NCBI RefSeq assembly: GCF_000002985.6
Contig: NC_003280.10
Coordinates: 4,646,501-4,710,500 of the forward strand
Direction: 5' to 3'
Source of the DNA: Caenorhabditis elegans
Taxonomy: Eukaryota; Nematoda; Chromadorea; Rhabditida; Rhabditidae
Length of the DNA stretch: 64,000 nt
Shown: piece by piece, positions 12,785 through 56,562 of the stretch
Layout: each line of letters begins with the position of its first letter
Position numbering within the stretch: the stretch's first letter is position 1
Made by a program: the position numbers and the translations under genes
The notes under the pieces: model-generated
The model's input: the letters and a program-made list of their open reading frames with translations, nothing else
Databases searched by the model: none
What the model was told of the DNA's origin: nothing

Positions 12785-14878
12785 TCAAACAAATATTAAT
12801 TTGCCAGCTTTTGATTTCTCAAGTTCTTGGCAAATCCTGCAGCCTTCAATGTGTTCCGGAGTGATAAACTTTCTCGCCGAAGCAGAATACACGTTTCGAC
12901 CGATTGTACCGTGATAATATTTTAAGAAAGGCTTCTCCTCAACCAGAAGGGCTATATTCTGCACACGGTTTAACGACTGATTCTTGACGGACAAGTACAT
13001 ATCCATCCATGGGCCATCGGGAGTCTCATGAAAGTTCGGGTTTCGATGTTCTTCACGTGATCCGTCTTCCACTTTCAACCATCTTGTTGTTTGACCATCA
13101 ATGTAGCGAATGTTTTTGAAAAGTTTCATTGATTCATTTCTTGAAGGAATAGTTGTGAAAATTATCACATCGACTTTGACAAATGTTGGCACAATCCTCC
13201 AAATTAGTGTTGTTATGTCAATAATATTACTTTCCGTTGAAGAAAGATTCCCAGACTTGATATTTTGAGTTTCGCCGTTGGGAATAAAAGTCTGGCACAA
13301 TTAATTATTCTACCATATTCTACTTCTTCTTTAACTACATTTGTCATATTAATGTGAAGAGACGAAAAGTTCAAATCCTGGAATCCTTCTCGTTCAAGTC
13401 CGTAGAAGTCTAGATCGTTGAAATGTCCACGATGATAGTTAAAATGGGTTAAGTGCAAATTGATGTCATCACTGATGGTTTCAAATTTCAATTCAATTGA
13501 TATTGGTTTCAACTTTCTCAAAAATTCGAATAAAATTTCACGCGGCACAGTGTGTATTCTTGAATTCTCTCTCATAAAAAATCGATGTTTTGGCTTGTGG
13601 AGTACAAGAATAAGATGATCACATGTGAAAGATGGAATAAAATCATGGGCATATTTCAGTACACTTTGTGACGTTTCCATTTTTTCAATTGATAGATCGG
13701 CAATGAAATGGAGCAGTCTGGAAAGTTGGTGTTTTTTTTCGGACACTGATTTTTATTGTATTTTTTAGAAAATTGTTTGAAGGAACTACTTGAGAAATAA
13801 ATAAACATTTATACACAATGTTTAAACTAACTTACTTATCAGAAATAATCAACTCCTTAAAATGTTTCTCGTTGACTCGGCTTTCAGTCATCATATGAAA
13901 TTGAAGTGGGCCATATTTTTGGCATTTTTCAGCTATCATTGTACAATGTTTGCATCCTCTCGGGCATAAACAGTCCATTCCAATGAATTCTGTGATTCTA
14001 CCACCTGAAACGAAAATTACACCAAATAATCAGATGAAGTTAGCAATTTTCAATTGAGTTTAAATTTTTCAGCCGACAAGTATTCTACAAGTAATTACAT
14101 ATTTCTAAAAACTTATAATCTCCAATGAGTTCTTCCATGATAATTTTATGAGCATTCGTAAGATCCCAGTGTTTCAAACTATTCATTTTCTTCACTTCGA
14201 GTTTTTTTACCCTCACATTGCACAAGGTTTTTAAGAACCTGGAAAAAATCCAATTTTATGAGTTTAGTTTTCAGAAAAAAACAACTAAATACTCAATAAA
14301 ACTTTATTCCAAAAAATTGGTTTTCCAAAAAAAGTATAGTTTTTTTTATATTTAAAAATAATCCAAAAATAAACCAAACTCGCTTTAAATGCTCATAAAA
14401 TTTATGTTCTGTACAATATTTTTTATTGACAGTAACCCCTTTATTCATTTTAATTTCATCCTCGTTGAAAAATATAAATGGGAATCGATTTTGTTCGTTT
14501 GCTTCAATTGTGACTTTTTCATGGGATTTTTGTAGTGCTGCTATGCATCCTTTATTGAACAATTTATTGACTAGCTGAAAATAGTTTATTAATAATGTTT
14601 TTAGAGCCAGTAAATGAAACAAACCTGACAACAAATTGTGTAATTGATTTTATGTTGTATTTGCTTTTACCAAAAACATTTTAACTGATCTACATTTTCC
14701 CTAATGAAAATTGTTGTTCAAATCAGGTCACAAACGACTGGAAAATGACGGAATATCATATAAAAAAACTTACTCGAAGTTCTTGAAAGTTATCAAAACT
14801 TTTTGTGTGCTGTATAATGTTATTCACAATTAATCCTATATGGAAAACTTTTTCCACAAGTTCTGTCGTGTCCTTCAT
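12785..14878 (-). pseudogene. Decayed paralogue of the F-box-like gene at 17.3-18.9 kb
   Basis: It aligns with the intact copy exon by exon: start at 14878, then about 14412-14575, 14112-14241, 13836-14004 and 12785-13717. Three defects are visible. In the last exon, about 10 bp are missing near 13240-13260 relative to the intact copy, so the frame changes after LLFPTAKLKISS and resumes at STESNIIDITTLIW. The exon 3 donor reads ATAAGT where the intact copy has GTAAGT. The exon 2 donor reads GTTTGG instead of GTAAGT. The protein family is nematode-specific, with an N-terminal F-box-like segment (NNIIQHTKSFDNFQELRLVN). Much sequence is still similar, so the inactivation need not be old. An unusual gene model that avoids the lesions cannot be fully excluded. 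Confidence 0.7.
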
Positions 14879-17336: not shown

Positions 17337-18945
17337 TCAAGCGAATTCCCATTTGCTTTTGCTCTTATTCACGCCATGATGTCTATAACATCTCGTGCAA
17401 TTTGCAACATGTTCGGGAGTGATGAACTTTCTCGCCGAGGCAGAATATTCCTTTTGGTTAATTGTGCTATGGTAATATTTCCCGAAAGACTCTTCTTCCA
17501 CCAGAACAGCAATGTCAAGCATTCGATTTATTGATTTATCCTTAATTGTGAAATACATATCCATATATGGGCCTTCTGGTAGTCTTAGAAAATTTGCGCT
17601 TCTTCGCTCTTCTCGACTTTTCTCTTCAAGACGAAGCCATTTAACGGTTTGCCCATTTTCGATCCGAAGATTTTTGAAGAACTTCACTGTTTGAGTTGTC
17701 TTTGGAACCGTTGGAAATAGATGGAGATCGATTTTGATGTATTTTGGCACATTTCTCCAAATAAGCGGTATTAAGTCAATAACATTTCTTTCCATTGAAG
17801 CAAGATTTACAAGACAGCTTGGTAATGAAATCTTCAATTTCTCAGTGGGAAATAAACAGCTAGCATTATGGATTGTTACCGCACAATCTTCCTTTGATAA
17901 CCATTCCGAATTTCTCATATTAATGTGAAGATGTGATAAATTCCAATTATTGACAGGTGCATGTTGAGCCTCGTGTAATCTAATTGCGCCAAAACGCCCG
18001 ACTCGCAGTTCTACTGTTTTTGGGTTTAGTGCAGCCAGAAGTTCCATAGCAACATCGCGGGAAAATGAACTATTGAGTATGAGTATTAGATGGTCACATG
18101 TGAATGGCGGAATCAGATTTTGGAGATATGAAGCGTATTGTCTTCTTTTGTGTTGTTCGATCAATGAGAACAATCTGAAAAATAATTACTTTAATTTTAT
18201 GGATTCATGTTTTAAATTCCCACCTGTCACAAATGATTAATTCCTTAAAATGTGGATCGAGCCGACTTCGTATCACCATATGCAATTGTAGTGGACCATA
18301 TCTATTGCATTTATCTGCAATTTCGGTGCAACCTTCACATCCTTCTGGACAAATTGAACTCATTCCAATGAACTCTCGGATAGTATAACCTGGAAGAGGA
18401 AATAAAATTAAAGTACTTTATACGTATATTATCTAGTATGTATAAAAACTTACGACAATTTCCAATCAAGTCGTCCATAATAATTCTGTGAGTGTTCTGA
18501 AGATCCCAATGCTTTAGTTTATGGAGTTCCTTCACTTCAAAGTATTTTATCTTCACCCTACATTTGTTTTTCAAAAATCTAGGAAAATAGTATTAATATA
18601 AAGTTGAAAAATTTTGCATTCACTTACCTTATTCTTTTATGAAACGAGCTCTCTTTGCAAAACTTCCCATTGATCGTAACTCCTTCATCATCTGGTTTCA
18701 AATGAACTTCTGGTACTCTTGCTTCAATAAGTATTTTCTCATGGGATTGTCGAAGTACGTTGATGCATTCTTTGTTGAAAGATCGATTGACTAGCTGGAA
18801 AATTTTAGTTGAACAAAACAAAATAGAAATCCAAATTGAAAGTACTTACTCGAAGATCTGGAAAATTTTCAAAGGGGTAGGTGTGTTTGATTATGTTATT
18901 GATAACAATATCAATACTGAATATTTTCTCCATTGGATCGGACAT
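17337..18945 (-). CDS. F-box-like nematode-specific protein (intact copy)
   Basis: Five exons, all phases consistent, give 463 aa: 18850-18945, 18628-18794, 18454-18578, 18224-18389, 17337-18174. Residues about 5-50 resemble a degenerate F-box (IVINNIIKH...FPDLRLVNRSFNKECINVL). A Cys/His cluster follows (CPEGCEGCTEIADKC), then a long C-terminal region with FTCDHLILIL, ISLPSCLVNL and ARKFITPEHVANCTRC. F-box proteins usually recruit substrates to SCF ubiquitin ligases; here that is inference from weak N-terminal similarity. The gene lies 448 bp downstream of the fut-6 stop on the same strand. A decayed paralogue sits at 12.8-14.9 kb. Confidence 0.7.
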
Positions 18946-21088: not shown

Positions 21089-21790
21089 AAAGAATCTGTA
21101 AAATATAAAAAGTATAAAAATAGAGAAGTGTCCTCCCAAAAGAGGAAAATAATATAGAAGTTTCTATGGAAACTCCGAGAAATGAGAAAGACGTTTTATT
21201 TTTTCTGAATACAGACATGTCAGAATACGCAATTTTTTCTACTAAGTTGCAATATTAATTTTTTTTAGTGTCCTCAATTTAACTTTTTTCAAGAAATTGC
21301 GCCATTAAAAATAATTTGTATCTGAAGACCAGGTTTTTCAATGTGACAACTTTCAAATAATATCAGTAGAGTTTTCATAAGAGTAATATTTAAAACAAAA
21401 TGAGCATGTTTTAAAGCTTACCACTAAAAAAATGCAGAGCAAAACAGTAACAAAAAAAATATTTTTAAAAACTTATTTCAAACTGTTCTCTGTGCTGGGC
21501 GATGTGGTCCACGTGTTCAGATCGATGAAAAAATGGTTTACGTACAATATTTTAAGAAAAATACAAATTTTCCAAAATGGTCAATTTTTCCGACTGGAAA
21601 AAATTTTCTCATCTTTATTTCGAAGTTTTCAATAGGAAATTTTTATAGAAATTTAGAGGAATACTTGTATTATACTTTCTAAAAACAACTTTACTTTTAT
21701 ATAGAAAGCACAAGGATTTGTCTATATCTCTATATAACTTTCGAAAAAAAATAGCGAGAGAGTGTGGATTTTGTAAATGTGCCGCACAGG

Positions 21791-22003
21791 TAGGGGTGGC
21801 GATAGGTCGCAACAGGGCGCCCTCGCTATTTCACAGCAGCTTCACGAACAATCCAATCAGAATTTTGAAGATGAAAATTAAATTAGCATGGTTTACTTAT
21901 TACTCGAATTTTCTTTCGAGGTCGAAACTTTATTCATTGAGGTCGTTAGTAGGGGTGGCGTTAGGTCGCAACAGGGCGCCCTATCGCCACCCCTACGCAC
22001 AGG
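21791..22003. repeat. Duplicated palindromic repeat with GGCGCC core
   Basis: A unit of about 33 bp beginning TAGGGGTGGCG and ending CAGGGCGCCCT occurs at 21791-21823 and again at 21950-21982. The second copy is followed by CGCCACCCCTAC, so TAGGGGTGGCG...CGCCACCCCTA forms an inverted repeat around GGGCGCCC. GCACAGGTA occurs next to both outer edges. It looks like a small foldback element or its remnant, between the fut-6 promoter and the kinase gene's 3' end. Confidence 0.6.
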
Positions 22004-22217
22004 TACGCATAGAAATGAAAAATGGGTGGTAGGGACTGAAGCCTTTTTGCCAATCGTCTCAGTTTTGTAGAATCTTGTGAGATAATCTGCAAGAGGTCTG
22101 CTAGATGTTTCCATCGGAAAAACAAAAAATTAAAAGCCTGATAATGATTGCAAAATCATTTTATTCAATTACAAAACATTGCATTCTATTCAGAGCATCT
22201 ATTCAGAGCTACACGAG

Positions 22218-25200
22218 TTATTCTTCATCATCTCCAGTTCCCTTTTTTTCCGACTTCTCCGATTCACTGTCAAACTCCTTTTGCTTCAGTTTGCCCATCC
22301 AATCCAACTTCTTAGTGATCTTGGCACCTACATCATTGGCAGTTGTCTTGAGGAAGTTTAGAATGTACGAGTAGTCTGGAGTGGTGTCGTATTGCATGTC
22401 GTCGACGTACACGACCAAATCTTTCAAGCGTTTCAGAATATTTGAGAATTGGAAATTGTCGACTGAAACCAGATTATTTTCCTTGTTTTTACACTAAGAA
22501 AATAAAACTTACAGGTAGCAAAGAATGTGTTCTTCGACTTCAAAATCTCCCTGGGATCGCACAAAGCTCTCCAAGGCATTCCATGTGCTTCATCCATCAA
22601 ATCAAATACCAAGTAGATCCAAGTTTCCAAGTCATCCTTCCTTCCCTGTTCCTGCTGCATCATACATGCCCGACAAGCATATCTCAGCGTTCCCAGGAAC
22701 TTCACCTTCTTTCTTTTTATCTTGTGAACTCCATTCTCATCAACGTAAAGTTTGGCAATTCCAAAGTCGAGCATGTAGACTGTATCCTCACGTTCATCAA
22801 GACCAACTGCATAGTTTGCTGGTTTGATGTCTCGATGGAGATAGCCAAGTGAATGAAGATCCCGGAGAGCAGTGACAGTTTGGATGGCAACGTTGAATGA
22901 AGTGTGCTTTGAAAACGAGGCGAGGAGGTACTTGCGGCGAATGTCTTCAAGGGATGGTCCAACAAGACCCATCACAACAAACTTGCACTTGAGCTGCTCA
23001 CACTTTCCACGATCCACAAATTCAATGAAATTTTTGAACTTGTTATCCTTCTTCTTCTCGGCAGTCTTCATCATCACAGTCACCTCGACTTTCAGACGTA
23101 AGTATCGCTTCTCTCCCTCTTCACTTTCAGTCTTCAATGCGTAGCATTTGTTGGATGCCTGGCTCTCCCGATGCACTTTGTACACATCTCCAAATCCACC
23201 GGAACCGAGAAGATTCACTACTTTCCATCTGAAAATTGTTTGACTTTTCAGCAGGATCTATTTTCTTCAGTACTTACCCGTCTGTTGCTCCAACTCCCAA
23301 TATGACATCTCCAGATGACAACTTCTTTCTGGCTGGCTTTTTTGGCTTCTCACCTCGTGGAAGAAAGTCTCGTTCTCCTGTCACCTTGCAGTCGAAACTG
23401 CGTACCTGAAAACCTTTTGTTTAAAAGCTTTCTTGAATAAGTTATTTACCGTATCACCAGCGAGTTCGTCCACTCCAGCCTTTCCAAGCCAGTCACACGA
23501 CTTTTTGTTCAAGTTTTGAACGGTTTGGATGCCTTCCAAGCAGTTTCTGAAGACCTCATAGTCTGGAGCACTCGAAAATTCGTATCCATTGATGACTGAG
23601 AGAAGTGGTACCAAGTCGCGTGGAGCATGAGTGAACTGATCTTTCCCGTCTGAAAATTAAAAAATAAAATACACTGTTCAGAAAGATAAGCTGTCTTCTT
23701 ACTTCCGGCCATAAAAGCATCCTTCTGCTGAATTACCACTAGTGAATTGTTCTCCCGCTTCCAACTCAAAGATCCATTATCCATCAGATAGAACAAAGTG
23801 TACACCCAGCTTTCCAAGTCATCCTTTCGTCCCTGATCCTTGGATCCTTGGCAAGCTCTGTTCGCGAAGCGTCCACAACCGTACATCTTAACATTCGTTC
23901 TTGCAGTCACATGTTTCTTGTTTTCTTCGAACTTCCTAGCTTGACGGAAATCCTGCAAGAACAGAGTTGGCTCGTCCATTCCTAGCCCACAATGAAACGA
24001 TGCTGGACTAATGTTTCGGTGAATGTAGCCAATCGAATGCAGATTCTGAATTGCTCTGAGCATCTGGAGACCAACGACGAATGAGCAGTCCATTGAAAGT
24101 TGTCCCATCGTGGCCTTTTTCATTATTTCATTCAACGTGGCACCGTATGGAGAAACGATCAGAAACTCCACTTTGTCCTTCACAATACTGCCATACTCTA
24201 TCATTGATATGAAACATTTGTCACCAGGAATCTTCTCAAGACGTCGGAGAAGAGCTGCTTCAGTCTGAAATTGAAAATAAAATGTACATCCTTCCTGTTC
24301 TTCCAAAACTTCTCACCTTCAAAATCTGTGGATCCTTTCTCGCCACCTTCATTCTATAATCGTCTCCCGATTCCGTATCCTTCACCAAATAAACGTCGTA
24401 GTCCAGAAGCTTCGAACTTTTCCGCAGTTGCGATGTCACCTTGTACTGGTTAACTCCTTCCACAATCTCCCCACTCGCGAAGCACTTCATTGGTGAAGGT
24501 TTCTTGCGAGCACGACCCGAGTTATCCTTCTTCTTGTTTTTTCCACTCAGTGGACCTTTCGAATTTAACGAACTGACTCTACTTTTAGATTTACTCGATC
24601 TAAGATCACCGCCTGTGGTCTGAAAAATTTAGGTTTAATTGTGGATAGCACAAATTTTAGATTTTACAACACGGCTAAGCCAGTTTCAAGAATCATATCT
24701 TTAAGGCATTAAGGCAGGCAGAACCTAAGGCTTCCATGCAGACACCGAAAAGTTTGCCGTGGCCACCTGGAGGCGACCTTCGCCTGCCTCACATCGCGAC
24801 TCCTGCATCTTGTATAGTGTCACGATGAATCCAAAGTGTCAGACGTAAGAATCTTTGGTGCAAACACGAAGCATTTGATTGCATGTCACAATTGAGGCGA
24901 AGAGGGCGACGTGAGGTGGGCACGTTTCAGGCAGGCTCTGAAGCCACGCTTGCCGCTCGTGGAAGCCCTAGACAGAACCAAAAGTATCGAATGTCTCTTT
25001 TCACGTTAACCATTCTGACTCTCCAAACAAAAAAGTACAAATTTACGATAAAAACCGCATAACAAGCAACTCGAAATCTTTATTAAAACAGATGCGCCAA
25101 CATTCTCCAAACTTACATTCGGCTTCTTCCCTCGAAAAGACAAAAATCCGCCGTTCGGTTTTGAGCCAGGCTTCCTTTTCTGTGTTGATTGCATTGTTGA

Positions 25201-25239
25201 GAGTTTTGATTGTTTTGCCGTCTCATCCGCTGTACCCAT
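22218..25239 (-). CDS. Tandem pseudokinase-kinase of the tau-tubulin kinase (CK1) family
   Basis: Seven exons give 758 aa: 25117-25239, 24317-24619, 23703-24264, 23450-23649, 23278-23405, 22513-23228, 22218-22462. There is a basic N-terminus (about 1-85), then a first kinase-like domain (about 95-390) and a second (about 435-690). In the second, the Gly loop GSGGFGDVY, HRDIKPAN and LDFG are intact, as are the TTBK traits YALKTE and GRKDDLETW. In the first, the Gly loop is gone (RKSSKLLDYDVY), the HRD Asp is Asn (HRNISPAS) and DFG is DFR. GRKDDLESW is kept. So one polypeptide carries a dead domain followed by a probably active one. A KKPARKK linker joins them, and the C-terminus is acidic. No stop or splice break separates the domains. 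Nematodes have many TTBK-like genes, often germline expressed. Confidence 0.85.
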
Positions 25240-26585
25240 TTTGAAGTGCAATTTTGCCCCAACTCTCGTTCAGATGGTATGATCGCCAAATTGAAAAATA
25301 AATTTGAAACTGGCCGAGGTGGGAGGATTCCCGTGATTTGTTTTTTTTTGTTCTTCCACGGACAAATTTTTGGGGAAAGGTCGGGTCTTGTTGTCACGTA
25401 GAAAAGTTGTGAATTTAATTTTTTTGTAATTGGAAAATTTTTGAATATTATTTTCTCACATGTTATTTTTTGTATTTTTATTTGAGCATTATACAAGAAT
25501 TTCCCAGTTACAAAAAAAATTTACCTAATTTCAAAAATTGTTGAAATTGGTTAAAAGTTTTTAAATTTAAAAAATTCTATGGATAGTTCCAGAATAACTG
25601 TTTTTTAAGGTAGAGTAGCAAAATTTGTGCTCAAATTTAAAACAAAAACGTACAGTATCGGCCAAAACTCTTCTCGTTTTCAGTTTTTTTATGTGATTGT
25701 GCTTGAGTTGTTCAAACACGCATAACTGAAAAACTATGATATTAGCAAAATATTTTCAACTAAGAAAATGTTGCCAATTACTTGTTTTACATGTTTCCTA
25801 GTATCAAAATTATAAAACTTCATTTCAAAGAATTTTACAGCAGCTGACATCAGGTGGGTCTATTTTTTATAGTGACCCACATCTAGGGATTTTTTTGAAG
25901 CAAAGTTAATCCACAGATTTTTCTACATCGTCCAATTTATTTCTCTGTCACAACCAGGAACATTTATACTTAACATTAAACAAACATAACGTCAGAATCA
26001 AGTGTCTCGTTTTTTCCAGTTTTCCCATGATGCCTATAACCTTTCTTAGGATCTCACTGGCATGTTGCCAAGACGCAGCTGTTTGAATGTTAAAAACGAT
26101 ACAATCTGCCTATTTATTTTCCATGCACACATCGTCACGACATTAGAACATCTGTTTGTCCATTGTTTCCAAATTATGTATCGATTTAATTTCTAATCCC
26201 TCCTCCAAGGGCCCCACACACATTCTCGCTCTAATAATTGCTTACTCATTTTTTTTTTGCAGTGTGACACATTCTCCCCTCTTTACTCCTCTTCGCTCTT
26301 TCCCATGTTCGAGGTCAGCACGCTCGTTTGGTGTCCCAAACGCCTGCGTCTCTCGCACGCGACCGAGTTTTGAATTTAATTCTAAACCGCAGCGCGACCG
26401 CGTCGCTCTAACGAACGGATCTCTCCGTATCTAGTTCAGGGAGTTTTTCTGACATTTGCTTGTTTGTCTCACACCAGTTTCATACGATATTTGAATTGGT
26501 CTCTGGATTTTTTTGAAAATTTTTTTCTTTTACTTTTTTATTTTTTGCTTTGTATTTATATTATAAAAATGTATAAATTTTCAGA
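25240..26585. promoter_or_regulatory. Divergent intergenic region: kinase gene and hmg-11
   Basis: The two genes point away from each other, so both promoters should be here. A hairpin GTGGGTC...GACCCAC occurs near 25853-25883. A CT-rich and CG-rich block at about 26260-26430, containing several CGCTC/CGCG motifs, lies in front of hmg-11. TTTTCAG ends two bases before the hmg-11 ATG and is a plausible trans-splice acceptor. Promoter function is inferred from position. Confidence 0.45.
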
Positions 26586-27101
26586 ATGAGTGGAGAAGTT
26601 GGATCCAACGAATGCCTTGTTTCTACCAATGAAGTTCAAGAAGATTCTCCAGCTGTGACCGAGTCATCAAGTACGTTTTTTTTTGCCTTTTAAATTGTAG
26701 TATTATTCAAGATAATTTCAGTTTTTAGAATCCAATAAATCTGACTAATTCATTAAAAATTATCTTTTTCAGGCGCCAACGGATCTTCACCAGTTCGTCG
26801 CGGACGCGGACGTCCACCAAAGGGAACCAAGGTCCCAAAAGTCAAGCCGGCTCCAAAGCCGTATTCTGGAGCACCACGTGGCCGCCCACGCAAGTCTGAC
26901 CAAGTTGCCAAGTCTCCAGTTGCCAAGTCGCCAGTTGCTTCATCGTCCGCCGATGCTTCTCCAAAGCGTTCTCGTGGAGCACCAAAGAGCTACGCTGAGG
27001 ATGTTGCTGCAACGAAGCCAGCCAAGACTGATGTCGCCACACCGGCTCTTGCTGCTTTGACTGGAGAGAAGAAGGGACGTGGACGCCCAAAGAAGAATTA
27101 G
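26586..27101 (+). CDS. hmg-11: AT-hook HMGA-like chromatin protein
   Basis: Two exons (26586-26670, 26773-27101) give 137 aa. AT-hook cores: RGRGRPPKG at 38-46, RGRPRK at 64-69, and GRGRPKK at 130-136. A degenerate KRSRGAPK lies at 93-100. The rest is low complexity, with KSPVAKSPVA repeats that could be phosphorylation sites. AT-hooks bind the minor groove of AT-rich DNA, so the protein should be nuclear and architectural. The acidic N-terminal exon has no known domain. The symbol is from memory of the C. elegans HMGA-like genes in this region; hmg-12 is the alternative. Confidence 0.85.
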
Positions 27102-37778: not shown

Positions 37779-38490
37779 TCGTGGCGAGACCCAGCGTGGT
37801 GAGACCCATCGTGGCGAGACCCAGCGTGGTGAGACCCATCGTGGCGAGACCCAGCGTGGTGAGACCCATCGTGGCGAGACCCATCGTGGTGAGACCCATC
37901 GTGGTGAGACCCATAAGTTTTGGCGGGAATTCAAATTTTCTGTGAAAATTTTTTGGTGGGAATTCAAATTTTATGTGAAAAATTTTGGCGGCAATTCAAA
38001 TTTTATGTGAAAAATTTTGGCGGGAATTCAAATTTTCTGTGAAAAATTTCGGCGGGAAATTCAAATTTTCTGAGAAAAATTTTTGGCGGGAAATTAAAAT
38101 TTTCTTAGAAATAATTTTTGCCGGGAAATTGGTGAGACCCTTCGTGGTGAGACCCTTCGTGGTGAGACCCATCGTTGTGAGACCCTTCGTGGTGAGACCC
38201 TTAGTGGTGAGACCCATCGTTGTGAGACCTTTCGTGGTGAGACCCTTCGTGGTGAGACCCATCGTTGCGAGACCCAGTGTGGTGAGACCCTTCGTGGTGA
38301 GACCCTTCGTGGTGAGACCCATCGTTGTGAGACCCTTCGTGGTGAGACCCACCGTGGCGCGACCCATAAGTTTTGGCGAGAAATTCACATTTTCTGAGAA
38401 AAAAATTTCGGCTGGAAATTCAAATTTTCTGAGAAAAAATTTTGGCGGGAAATTCAAATTTTCAGAGAAATAATTTTTGTCGGGAAATTC
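37779..38490. repeat. Alternating 15-bp and about 30-bp minisatellites
   Basis: Unit A is CGTGGTGAGACCCAT (variants CGTGGCGAGACCCAG, CGTTGTGAGACCCTT). It runs nine times at about 37779-37912 and about sixteen times at 38131-38368. Unit B is about 30 bp, TTTTGGCGGGAAATTCAAAT then TTTCTGTGAAAAA, and fills 37918-38128 and 38370-38490. Because unit A is a multiple of three, it creates long open frames on both strands. These are not genes. Confidence 0.9.
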
Positions 38491-38498
38491 AAATTTGG

Positions 38499-38596
38499 TT
38501 CTAGAATCATCTGGACAATTCGAGAAAATTCTGGAATGTTCCAGAACCTTCTGGAAAATTCGAGAAAATTCTGGAATGTTCTAGAATCATCTGGAA
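38499..38596. promoter_or_regulatory. Phased heat-shock-element (HSF-1 site) array
   Basis: TTC and GAA alternate every five bases without error from 38519 to 38586: TTC at 38519, 38529, 38539, 38549, 38559, 38569, 38579 and GAA at 38524, 38534, 38544, 38554, 38564, 38574, 38584. That is fourteen contiguous nTTCnnGAAn half-sites. Further in-phase, partly degenerate half-sites start at 38499 and end at 38596. A functional HSF-1 element needs about three. It is part of the Helitron-like element; published work links C. elegans Helitrons to heat-shock elements. Confidence 0.8.
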
Positions 38597-38719
38597 ACTG
38601 AGAAAATTCTGAAATCATCTAGAATCGTCTAGAATAATATTTATGAGAAATTTTAAAATATGATTTTAATTTTGAGTAAGCCAGTCGGAGCACGCGCTTT
38701 AGCGCGTGCGAACGGCTGG

Positions 38720-55568: not shown

Positions 55569-56562
55569 ATGGCTTCCCGTGTCAACATTGTTCAAGTACA
55601 AATTCTCGACAATCCTGCGATGTTTGTCGACAAATTCAAGTTGGAGATCACATTTGAAGTTTTTGAGCACTTGCCGCATGGTAAGAAAGAGGAAAATATA
55701 AACTCATCGATAATAATGATAATTTTCAGATCTCGAATGGGAATTGGTCTACGTCGGATCCGGAACATCCCGAGACTTTGACCAAGTTCTCGATTCAGCG
55801 CTCGTTGGTCCAATTCCAGAAGGACGCCACAAGTTTGTGTTCGACGCGGATCATCCGGATATCTCGAAGATCCCAGTCGATGATATCGTCGGTGTCAGCG
55901 TACTTCTCCTGCGCTGCAAGTACAACGATCAGGAGTTTATCAATATGGGATGGTTCGTGGCAAATGAGTACACCGAGGAAGAGCTCAAAGAGAATCCCCC
56001 ATCGCAGCCACTCATCGAAAAGCTTTCCCGCAAAGTCGAAACTGAAGATCTTCGCATCACCACATTCCCGATTCGCTGGACTGATGAGGATCCGGTCGCA
56101 GAGCCTGTCGAGGATGAGGCTAACAGAGTATTCGCGGAAGATGACCTCATGCCTCTGAATGATGATGGCCAGGAAGATGACGATGAGGAGGAAGAGGTGA
56201 GAAAATGAATTTTACTTATTCAAAAATTAAATAATTTTATTCAGGATGATGACGAGATGGAGGCCAACGCTGAAGAAGTGGATTTGAACGAGAGCTTCAA
56301 TGAACGATTGGCCAATGCACTTGACGGGGCCGAACAGAAAGGCGCAGATGAGAAAATGGAGGACGATGGAGCAAATGAGGATGTTGATATGGCTGGTAAG
56401 TGTTACTTGGTTTCTCTAACCCCTTCTTGTTTCGTGATGTGTGCTTCTCACCCTGTAATTATAGATGACGAGCCTGGCGTTCAGATCAACACTGACACGA
56501 AAGTTCCGGAATCGATGGCGGAGCCACTCTCAGACAAGACAAACAACGAAATGGTCCAGTGA
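55569..56562 (+). CDS. unc-85: Histone H3-H4 chaperone ASF1
   Basis: Four exons (55569-55680, 55730-56196, 56245-56395, 56465-56562) give 275 aa. The conserved ASF1 core (about 1-155) has NIVQVQILDNPAMFVDKFKL, LEWELVYVGS, DQVLDSALVGPIPEGRHKFV, DDIVGVSVLLLRCKYNDQEF and GWFVANEY. These are the surfaces for histone H3-H4 and for B-domain partners. The tail is strongly acidic and not conserved, as in yeast and worm ASF1. Its start codon directly follows TCTTTCAG, so it is probably trans-spliced. In C. elegans unc-85 acts in post-embryonic neuroblast replication; a second gene, asfl-1, covers the germline. Confidence 0.96.

Follow-up and report, generated by a model that had tools for sequence, protein, structure and literature searches.

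A predicted pseudokinase and a TTBK-like kinase joined in tandem in Caenorhabditis elegans, with two sister loci

In this study, we found that one gene of C. elegans encodes, in a single reading frame, two domains of the CK1 group that both fall in its TTBK-like branch: a putative pseudokinase domain (D1, residues ~86-396), in which kinase homology persists with the catalytic residues lost, followed by a presumably active protein kinase domain (D2, residues ~425-738). Since this design is common to two sister genes, the tandem is real and conserved, and its general type is already well known. The gene lies on the minus strand at 22218-25239 of the stretch of 64,000 nucleotides that was analysed (hereafter the window; C2:4646501-4710500, where C2 corresponds to chromosome II), in a genome of 100,286,401 bases and 7 contigs.

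The seven exons of the gene join in phase, as the initial annotation had proposed, with all six introns being GT...AG (497, 52, 53, 44, 49, and 50 nt), and give one frame of 758 amino acids from ATG to TAA. The same protein was returned by a custom spliced aligner with the gene's own protein as query. Exon 1 (25117-25239) contains the start codon and a basic N-terminal region, the remainder of which is encoded by exon 2 (24317-24619) together with the start of the D1 N-lobe. Exon 3 (23703-24264) runs from the alphaC region of D1 up to a phase-1 intron at N330, and exon 4 (23450-23649) encodes the C-terminal part of D1 and ends in a KKSCDWLGK motif region. The linker between D1 and D2 is encoded by exon 5 (23278-23405), D2 up to another phase-1 intron at F678 by exon 6 (22513-23228), and the end of D2 (KKLDWMGK), an acidic tail, and the stop codon by exon 7 (22218-22462). 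An AATAAA, the likely poly(A) signal, is located 53 nt past the stop on the same minus strand (22160-22165).

Separate adjacent TTBK-like genes do occur in this genome, and one could therefore argue that D1 and D2 are two neighbouring genes wrongly joined in one model. A pair of adjacent live TTBK-like domains at C4:5257133-5259884 is an example, identified as two genes because its domains are separated by a stop, an AATAAA, and a new ATG. In contrast, the gene studied here has none of these; its introns are short, and its linker exon is in frame and under selection. When the gene strand was scanned from 22000 to 25300, no AATAAA was found between D1 and D2 (the only two were at 25084 in intron 1 and at 22165 past the stop), and the variant AATGAA occurred four times at 24124-24491, all within D1 or its N-terminal side. 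The lack of an inter-domain AATAAA, the purifying selection on the linker exon, and the recurrence of this layout at two further loci thus indicate one gene rather than two. Given the gene model, a linker under selection, and the pair on contig C4 for comparison, two separate genes are very unlikely, and we give a wrongly joined model next to no chance. The C4 pair itself has an opposite-strand copy at C4:5065901-5068539, ~190 kb away, and these opposite-strand pairs are arranged as would be expected after a large inverted duplication. An inverted repeat suspected in intron 1 of the tandem gene was searched for in that intron and was not found.

D2 contains all of the catalytic residues that were checked, namely the Gly loop (GSGGFG), the beta3 Lys (K471), the alphaC Glu (E487), the HRD Asp (D572, within HRDIKPAN), the catalytic Asn, and DFG (LDFG), in agreement with the motifs listed for it in the initial annotation. 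In D1, RKSSKLLD is found at the Gly loop (exon 2), and HRNISPAS and QDFRQ in exon 3 carry HRN for HRD (N226) and DFR for DFG (R249). The earlier reading that D1 lacks the Gly loop, the HRD Asp, and the DFG Gly was thus borne out, and the catalytic-loop Lys and the catalytic Asn are gone too, each being replaced by Ser. D1 still retains the beta3 Lys K132 (exon 2), the alphaC Glu E144 (exon 3), and the DFG Asp D247. Among solved structures, D1 matched TTBK2 first (E 4.9e-19), then TTBK1, and then CK1; D2 matched TTBK1 first (E 2.2e-37), then TTBK2, and then CK1. With the Pfam Pkinase cut-off at 31.7 bits, D2 scored above it (58.2 bits) and D1 below it (24.0 bits). The D2s of the tandems are 37-48% identical to TTBK1 exon by exon and 31-33% across the whole domain. 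The frame, the residues, and the top structure matches together confirm the proposal of a dead-then-live tandem of TTBK type. Human TTBK1 and TTBK2, the best solved-structure matches for both domains, have one catalytic kinase domain and are not known to contain a tandem. Judging by its homology, D1 probably still folds; an AlphaFold prediction of its main exon from a two-row alignment was uninformative (mean pLDDT 37.7).

A genome search gave at least 116 matches for D2 and at least 52 for D1, and the best 30 loci of each were cut out. Two further loci hold both domains in the same order and on the same strand. The first, T2 (contig C2, C2:5005137-5008009), has eight exons followed by a stop codon and aligns with the gene from end to end, with 580 of 756 residues identical; its D1 also reads HRN and DFR, and K132, E144, and D247 are kept there as well. 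The second, T3 (contig C1, C1:7976169-7972542), has ten exons encoding 736 amino acids uninterrupted by a stop; its D1 reads NRN and DYR, and its D2 reads HRD and DFG. The D1 of T3 is only ~30% identical to D1 of the gene and of T2. It has no clear beta3 Lys in a model whose N-lobe was built by hand in place of the tiny exons of the automatic model, and which is therefore less certain in that part. Outside the tandems, 21 loci were scored from 63, the others being duplicate hits to places already covered, parts of the tandems, or four Pkinase loci. These gave 21 distinct TTBK-like domains, all of which have the HRD Asp; one of them (L062) has a stop and lacks DFG. No fourth tandem was found among the 21 scored loci, nor by eye among the matches listed, the counts of which are lower bounds. 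In the accessible parts of two reports (PMC8527485, PMC12436626), TTBK-like and Worm6 kinases of C. elegans such as SPE-6 and SPE-60 are placed in the same expanded CK1 group. Unlike the tandem proteins, however, TTBK-like and Worm6 kinases are single-domain. The accessible parts of kinome papers also describe families of the CK1 group that are specific to C. elegans or to nematodes.

Despite the loss of its catalytic residues, D1 is kept. Between the gene and T2, pN/pS was 0.201 for D1 (bootstrap 0.149-0.274), 0.214 for linker exon 5 (0.104-0.353), and 0.142 for D2 (0.098-0.191), and since synonymous sites in these three parts are near saturation (pS 0.54-0.75), dN/dS is rough. Within D1, identity to T2 is 16/17 in alphaC, 26/29 in the activation segment, and 14/15 in alphaF, and 5/8 in the catalytic loop, whereas the D2 catalytic loop is identical at all eight positions. 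These values and regional identities indicate that D1 is kept as a protein part with constraint mostly outside its catalytic loop, and the purifying selection on D1 and the linker exon argues that D1 is a part in use. D1 could alternatively be a decaying relic without use, as its lost catalysis and its lower conservation (75% identity to T2, as compared to 87% for D2) might suggest. However, its pN/pS, with an upper bootstrap bound of 0.274, makes such a reading unlikely, and with an open frame also present in all three tandem genes we consider it highly improbable. The retention of K132, E144, and D247 in both the gene and T2 might instead mean that D1 still binds nucleotide or keeps some unusual residual catalysis. 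This seems improbable, considering that the Gly loop, the HRD Asp, the catalytic Lys and Asn, and the DFG Gly are lost, that the hand-made T3 model has no clear beta3 Lys, and that conservation within D1 is comparatively low in the catalytic loop. Catalysis is a poorer fit to this pattern of conservation than a surface or an allosteric role, and the selection on D1 is compatible with a regulatory or scaffolding role.

The origin of the tandems was addressed with a tree of 21 rows: the six tandem domains, 14 other TTBK-like domains, and human TTBK1. Seven of the scored loci were left out: L014, L018, and L062 because of coverage or a stop, and L020, L026, L032, and L034 because they were taken as near-copies of rows already included. 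The three D1s formed one branch (100/99), the three D2s another (82/51), and all six domains grouped together (93/83); only the first of these branches is firm. In an earlier tree with the automatic T3 model, the corresponding values were 100/99 for D1, 74/62 for D2, and 92/81 for all six. Independent fusions in the gene and T2 on one side and in T3 on the other, modelled by grouping D1 and D2 of the gene and T2 together without T3, were rejected by the AU test (p-AU 0.0003), in which long branches are in play.

The phase-1 introns at N330 and F678 occupy one homologous place in D1 and D2 of the gene, and the same is true of T2; in T3, both domains have phase-1 introns within about two residues of this place. 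This intron is not exclusive to the tandems, since L022 also has a phase-1 intron within two residues of it. Furthermore, D1 and D2 of T3 have in common a phase-0 intron in alphaE, which is present also in L023, L031, and L032. The intron pattern fits an intron-bearing unit that was duplicated in tandem and fused once, with introns lost later. The three D1s share R107, N226, and R249 (numbering of the gene), located in the Gly loop, HRD, and DFG, respectively. At only nine positions, these three among them, do all D1s agree on one residue and all D2s on another. Because Arg, Asn, and Arg are common to all three, the inactivation of D1 is most simply older than the split of the three loci. On the basis of the tree and the introns, one duplication and one inactivation behind the three tandems are favoured, and the pseudokinase-kinase architecture and its single origin, taken alone, can be held with high confidence.

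In JAK, which has a JH2 pseudokinase and a JH1 kinase, in GCN2, and in plant tandem kinase-pseudokinases, a dead kinase domain likewise stands beside a live one in one protein, and JAK JH2 controls JH1. These proteins belong to other kinase groups and their tandems have a separate origin; regulation is established there, whereas the tandem described here is known from sequence. The tree, the shared residues, and the introns support a history in which a TTBK-like ancestral unit was duplicated in tandem and fused in frame, with catalysis lost from the first copy before the three loci diverged; D1 has survived as a non-catalytic domain under selection. Most likely, D1 would pack on or tether D2 and act in cis to control how active D2 is or how substrates reach it, much as JH2 controls JH1, and D2 would phosphorylate Ser/Thr substrates. 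We give this explanation as a whole, from the single fusion to the cis-control, about an even chance. Cis-control appears to be the likeliest role of D1, with docking in trans a close second. In the latter case, D1 would mainly serve for docking or localisation, for instance to a substrate, a microtubule, or a membrane, with the catalysis of D2 unchanged. Such docking would equally produce the observed constraint on D1, and the Lys/Arg-rich N-terminus of all three tandem proteins is consistent with it. Most CK1-group kinases are moreover thought to be controlled by location via binding partners, according to the accessible part of one report (PMC8527485), and a built-in pseudokinase would be a mode of control unlike this. 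Nothing found here sets docking apart from cis-control, and we regard it as a possible reading that falls somewhat short of even. Whether the role of D1 lies in cis-control or elsewhere, a mechanism shared by all three tandems is not certain, because the D1 of T3 has diverged so far from the others. Three paralogues with one shared inactivation would be a small and convenient system in which to ask how a kinase domain, once dead, acquires a role.

The initial annotation knew of no described equivalent in the CK1/TTBK family, and this is not supported, since the accessible part of PMC4256087 (Table 1) lists a CK1-group family named 'Dual' with three members in C. elegans. One of the three, H05L14.1, is reported in the same source to have a kinase domain 40% identical to TTBK1/2. 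In a worm model, TDP-43 is reportedly not fully phosphorylated without H05L14.1; its deletion lowered TDP-43 S409/410 phosphorylation and improved the movement of TDP-43 worms. Like the tandems, the 'Dual' family is of the CK1 group, TTBK-like, and of three members. We infer that 'Dual' refers to two kinase domains and that the tandem gene is one of the three members. The three tandem loci would then be the three Dual members, a good match by count, so the architecture has probably been catalogued already. However, the accessible description of the family (PMC4256087) contains no statement of a dead first domain, such as the tandems have. Beyond the 'Dual' table entry, no description of a pseudokinase-kinase tandem in the CK1 group, or of D1 as an anciently dead and selected pseudokinase, was found among the literature matches listed, and the accessible part of an account of unusual kinases (PMC4177888) does not name the tandem gene. 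New here are the two sister tandems T2 and T3, with Arg, Asn, and Arg common to all three D1s, and the purifying selection on D1 and the linker. More tentatively, the anciently inactivated CK1-type D1 of this three-gene nematode family might control a TTBK-type kinase allosterically from within the same protein. The CK1 group would then have a JAK-like switch of its own, with TDP-43-type substrates in worm neurons as possible targets.

Near the gene, an open reading frame with several AT-hook-like motifs is located on the plus strand at 26757-27098, which we take to be hmg-11. In the accessible parts of PMC2323220 and PMC5104976, hmg-11 (T05A7.4) is grouped with HMG-box factors and predicted to bind DNA. 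With this neighbour, the tandem gene would be T05A7.6, which Table 1 of PMC9137885 gives as a predicted Ser/Thr kinase. In the same table, T05A7.6 is at 0.52-fold in ahr-1 mutants, as read from its table position, and both T05A7.6 and B0207.7 (spe-60) are in the ahr-1-lowered list, beside gcy-32 to gcy-37. Sperm enrichment is also reported for many kinases of the CK1 group in the accessible part of PMC8527485. The ahr-1 table and this enrichment offer thin hints as to where the tandem gene acts.

Several other features were noted in the window. Just downstream of the gene, at 21790-21996, a 21-base motif (GTAGGGGTGGCG...) is present in two direct copies and one inverted copy, which likely form a small foldback repeat. 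Tandem arrays at 37779-38634, in which 15-base units of the TCGTGGTGAGACCCA type (9 and 16 copies) alternate with units of 32-40 bases, yield long repetitive open frames on both strands. Two open reading frames on the minus strand, at 13219-13752 and 17343-18185, gave weak PHA-1 family matches below the cut-off. A clear ASF1 histone chaperone domain (165 bits) is encoded at 55723-56202, in a gene that is presumably unc-85.
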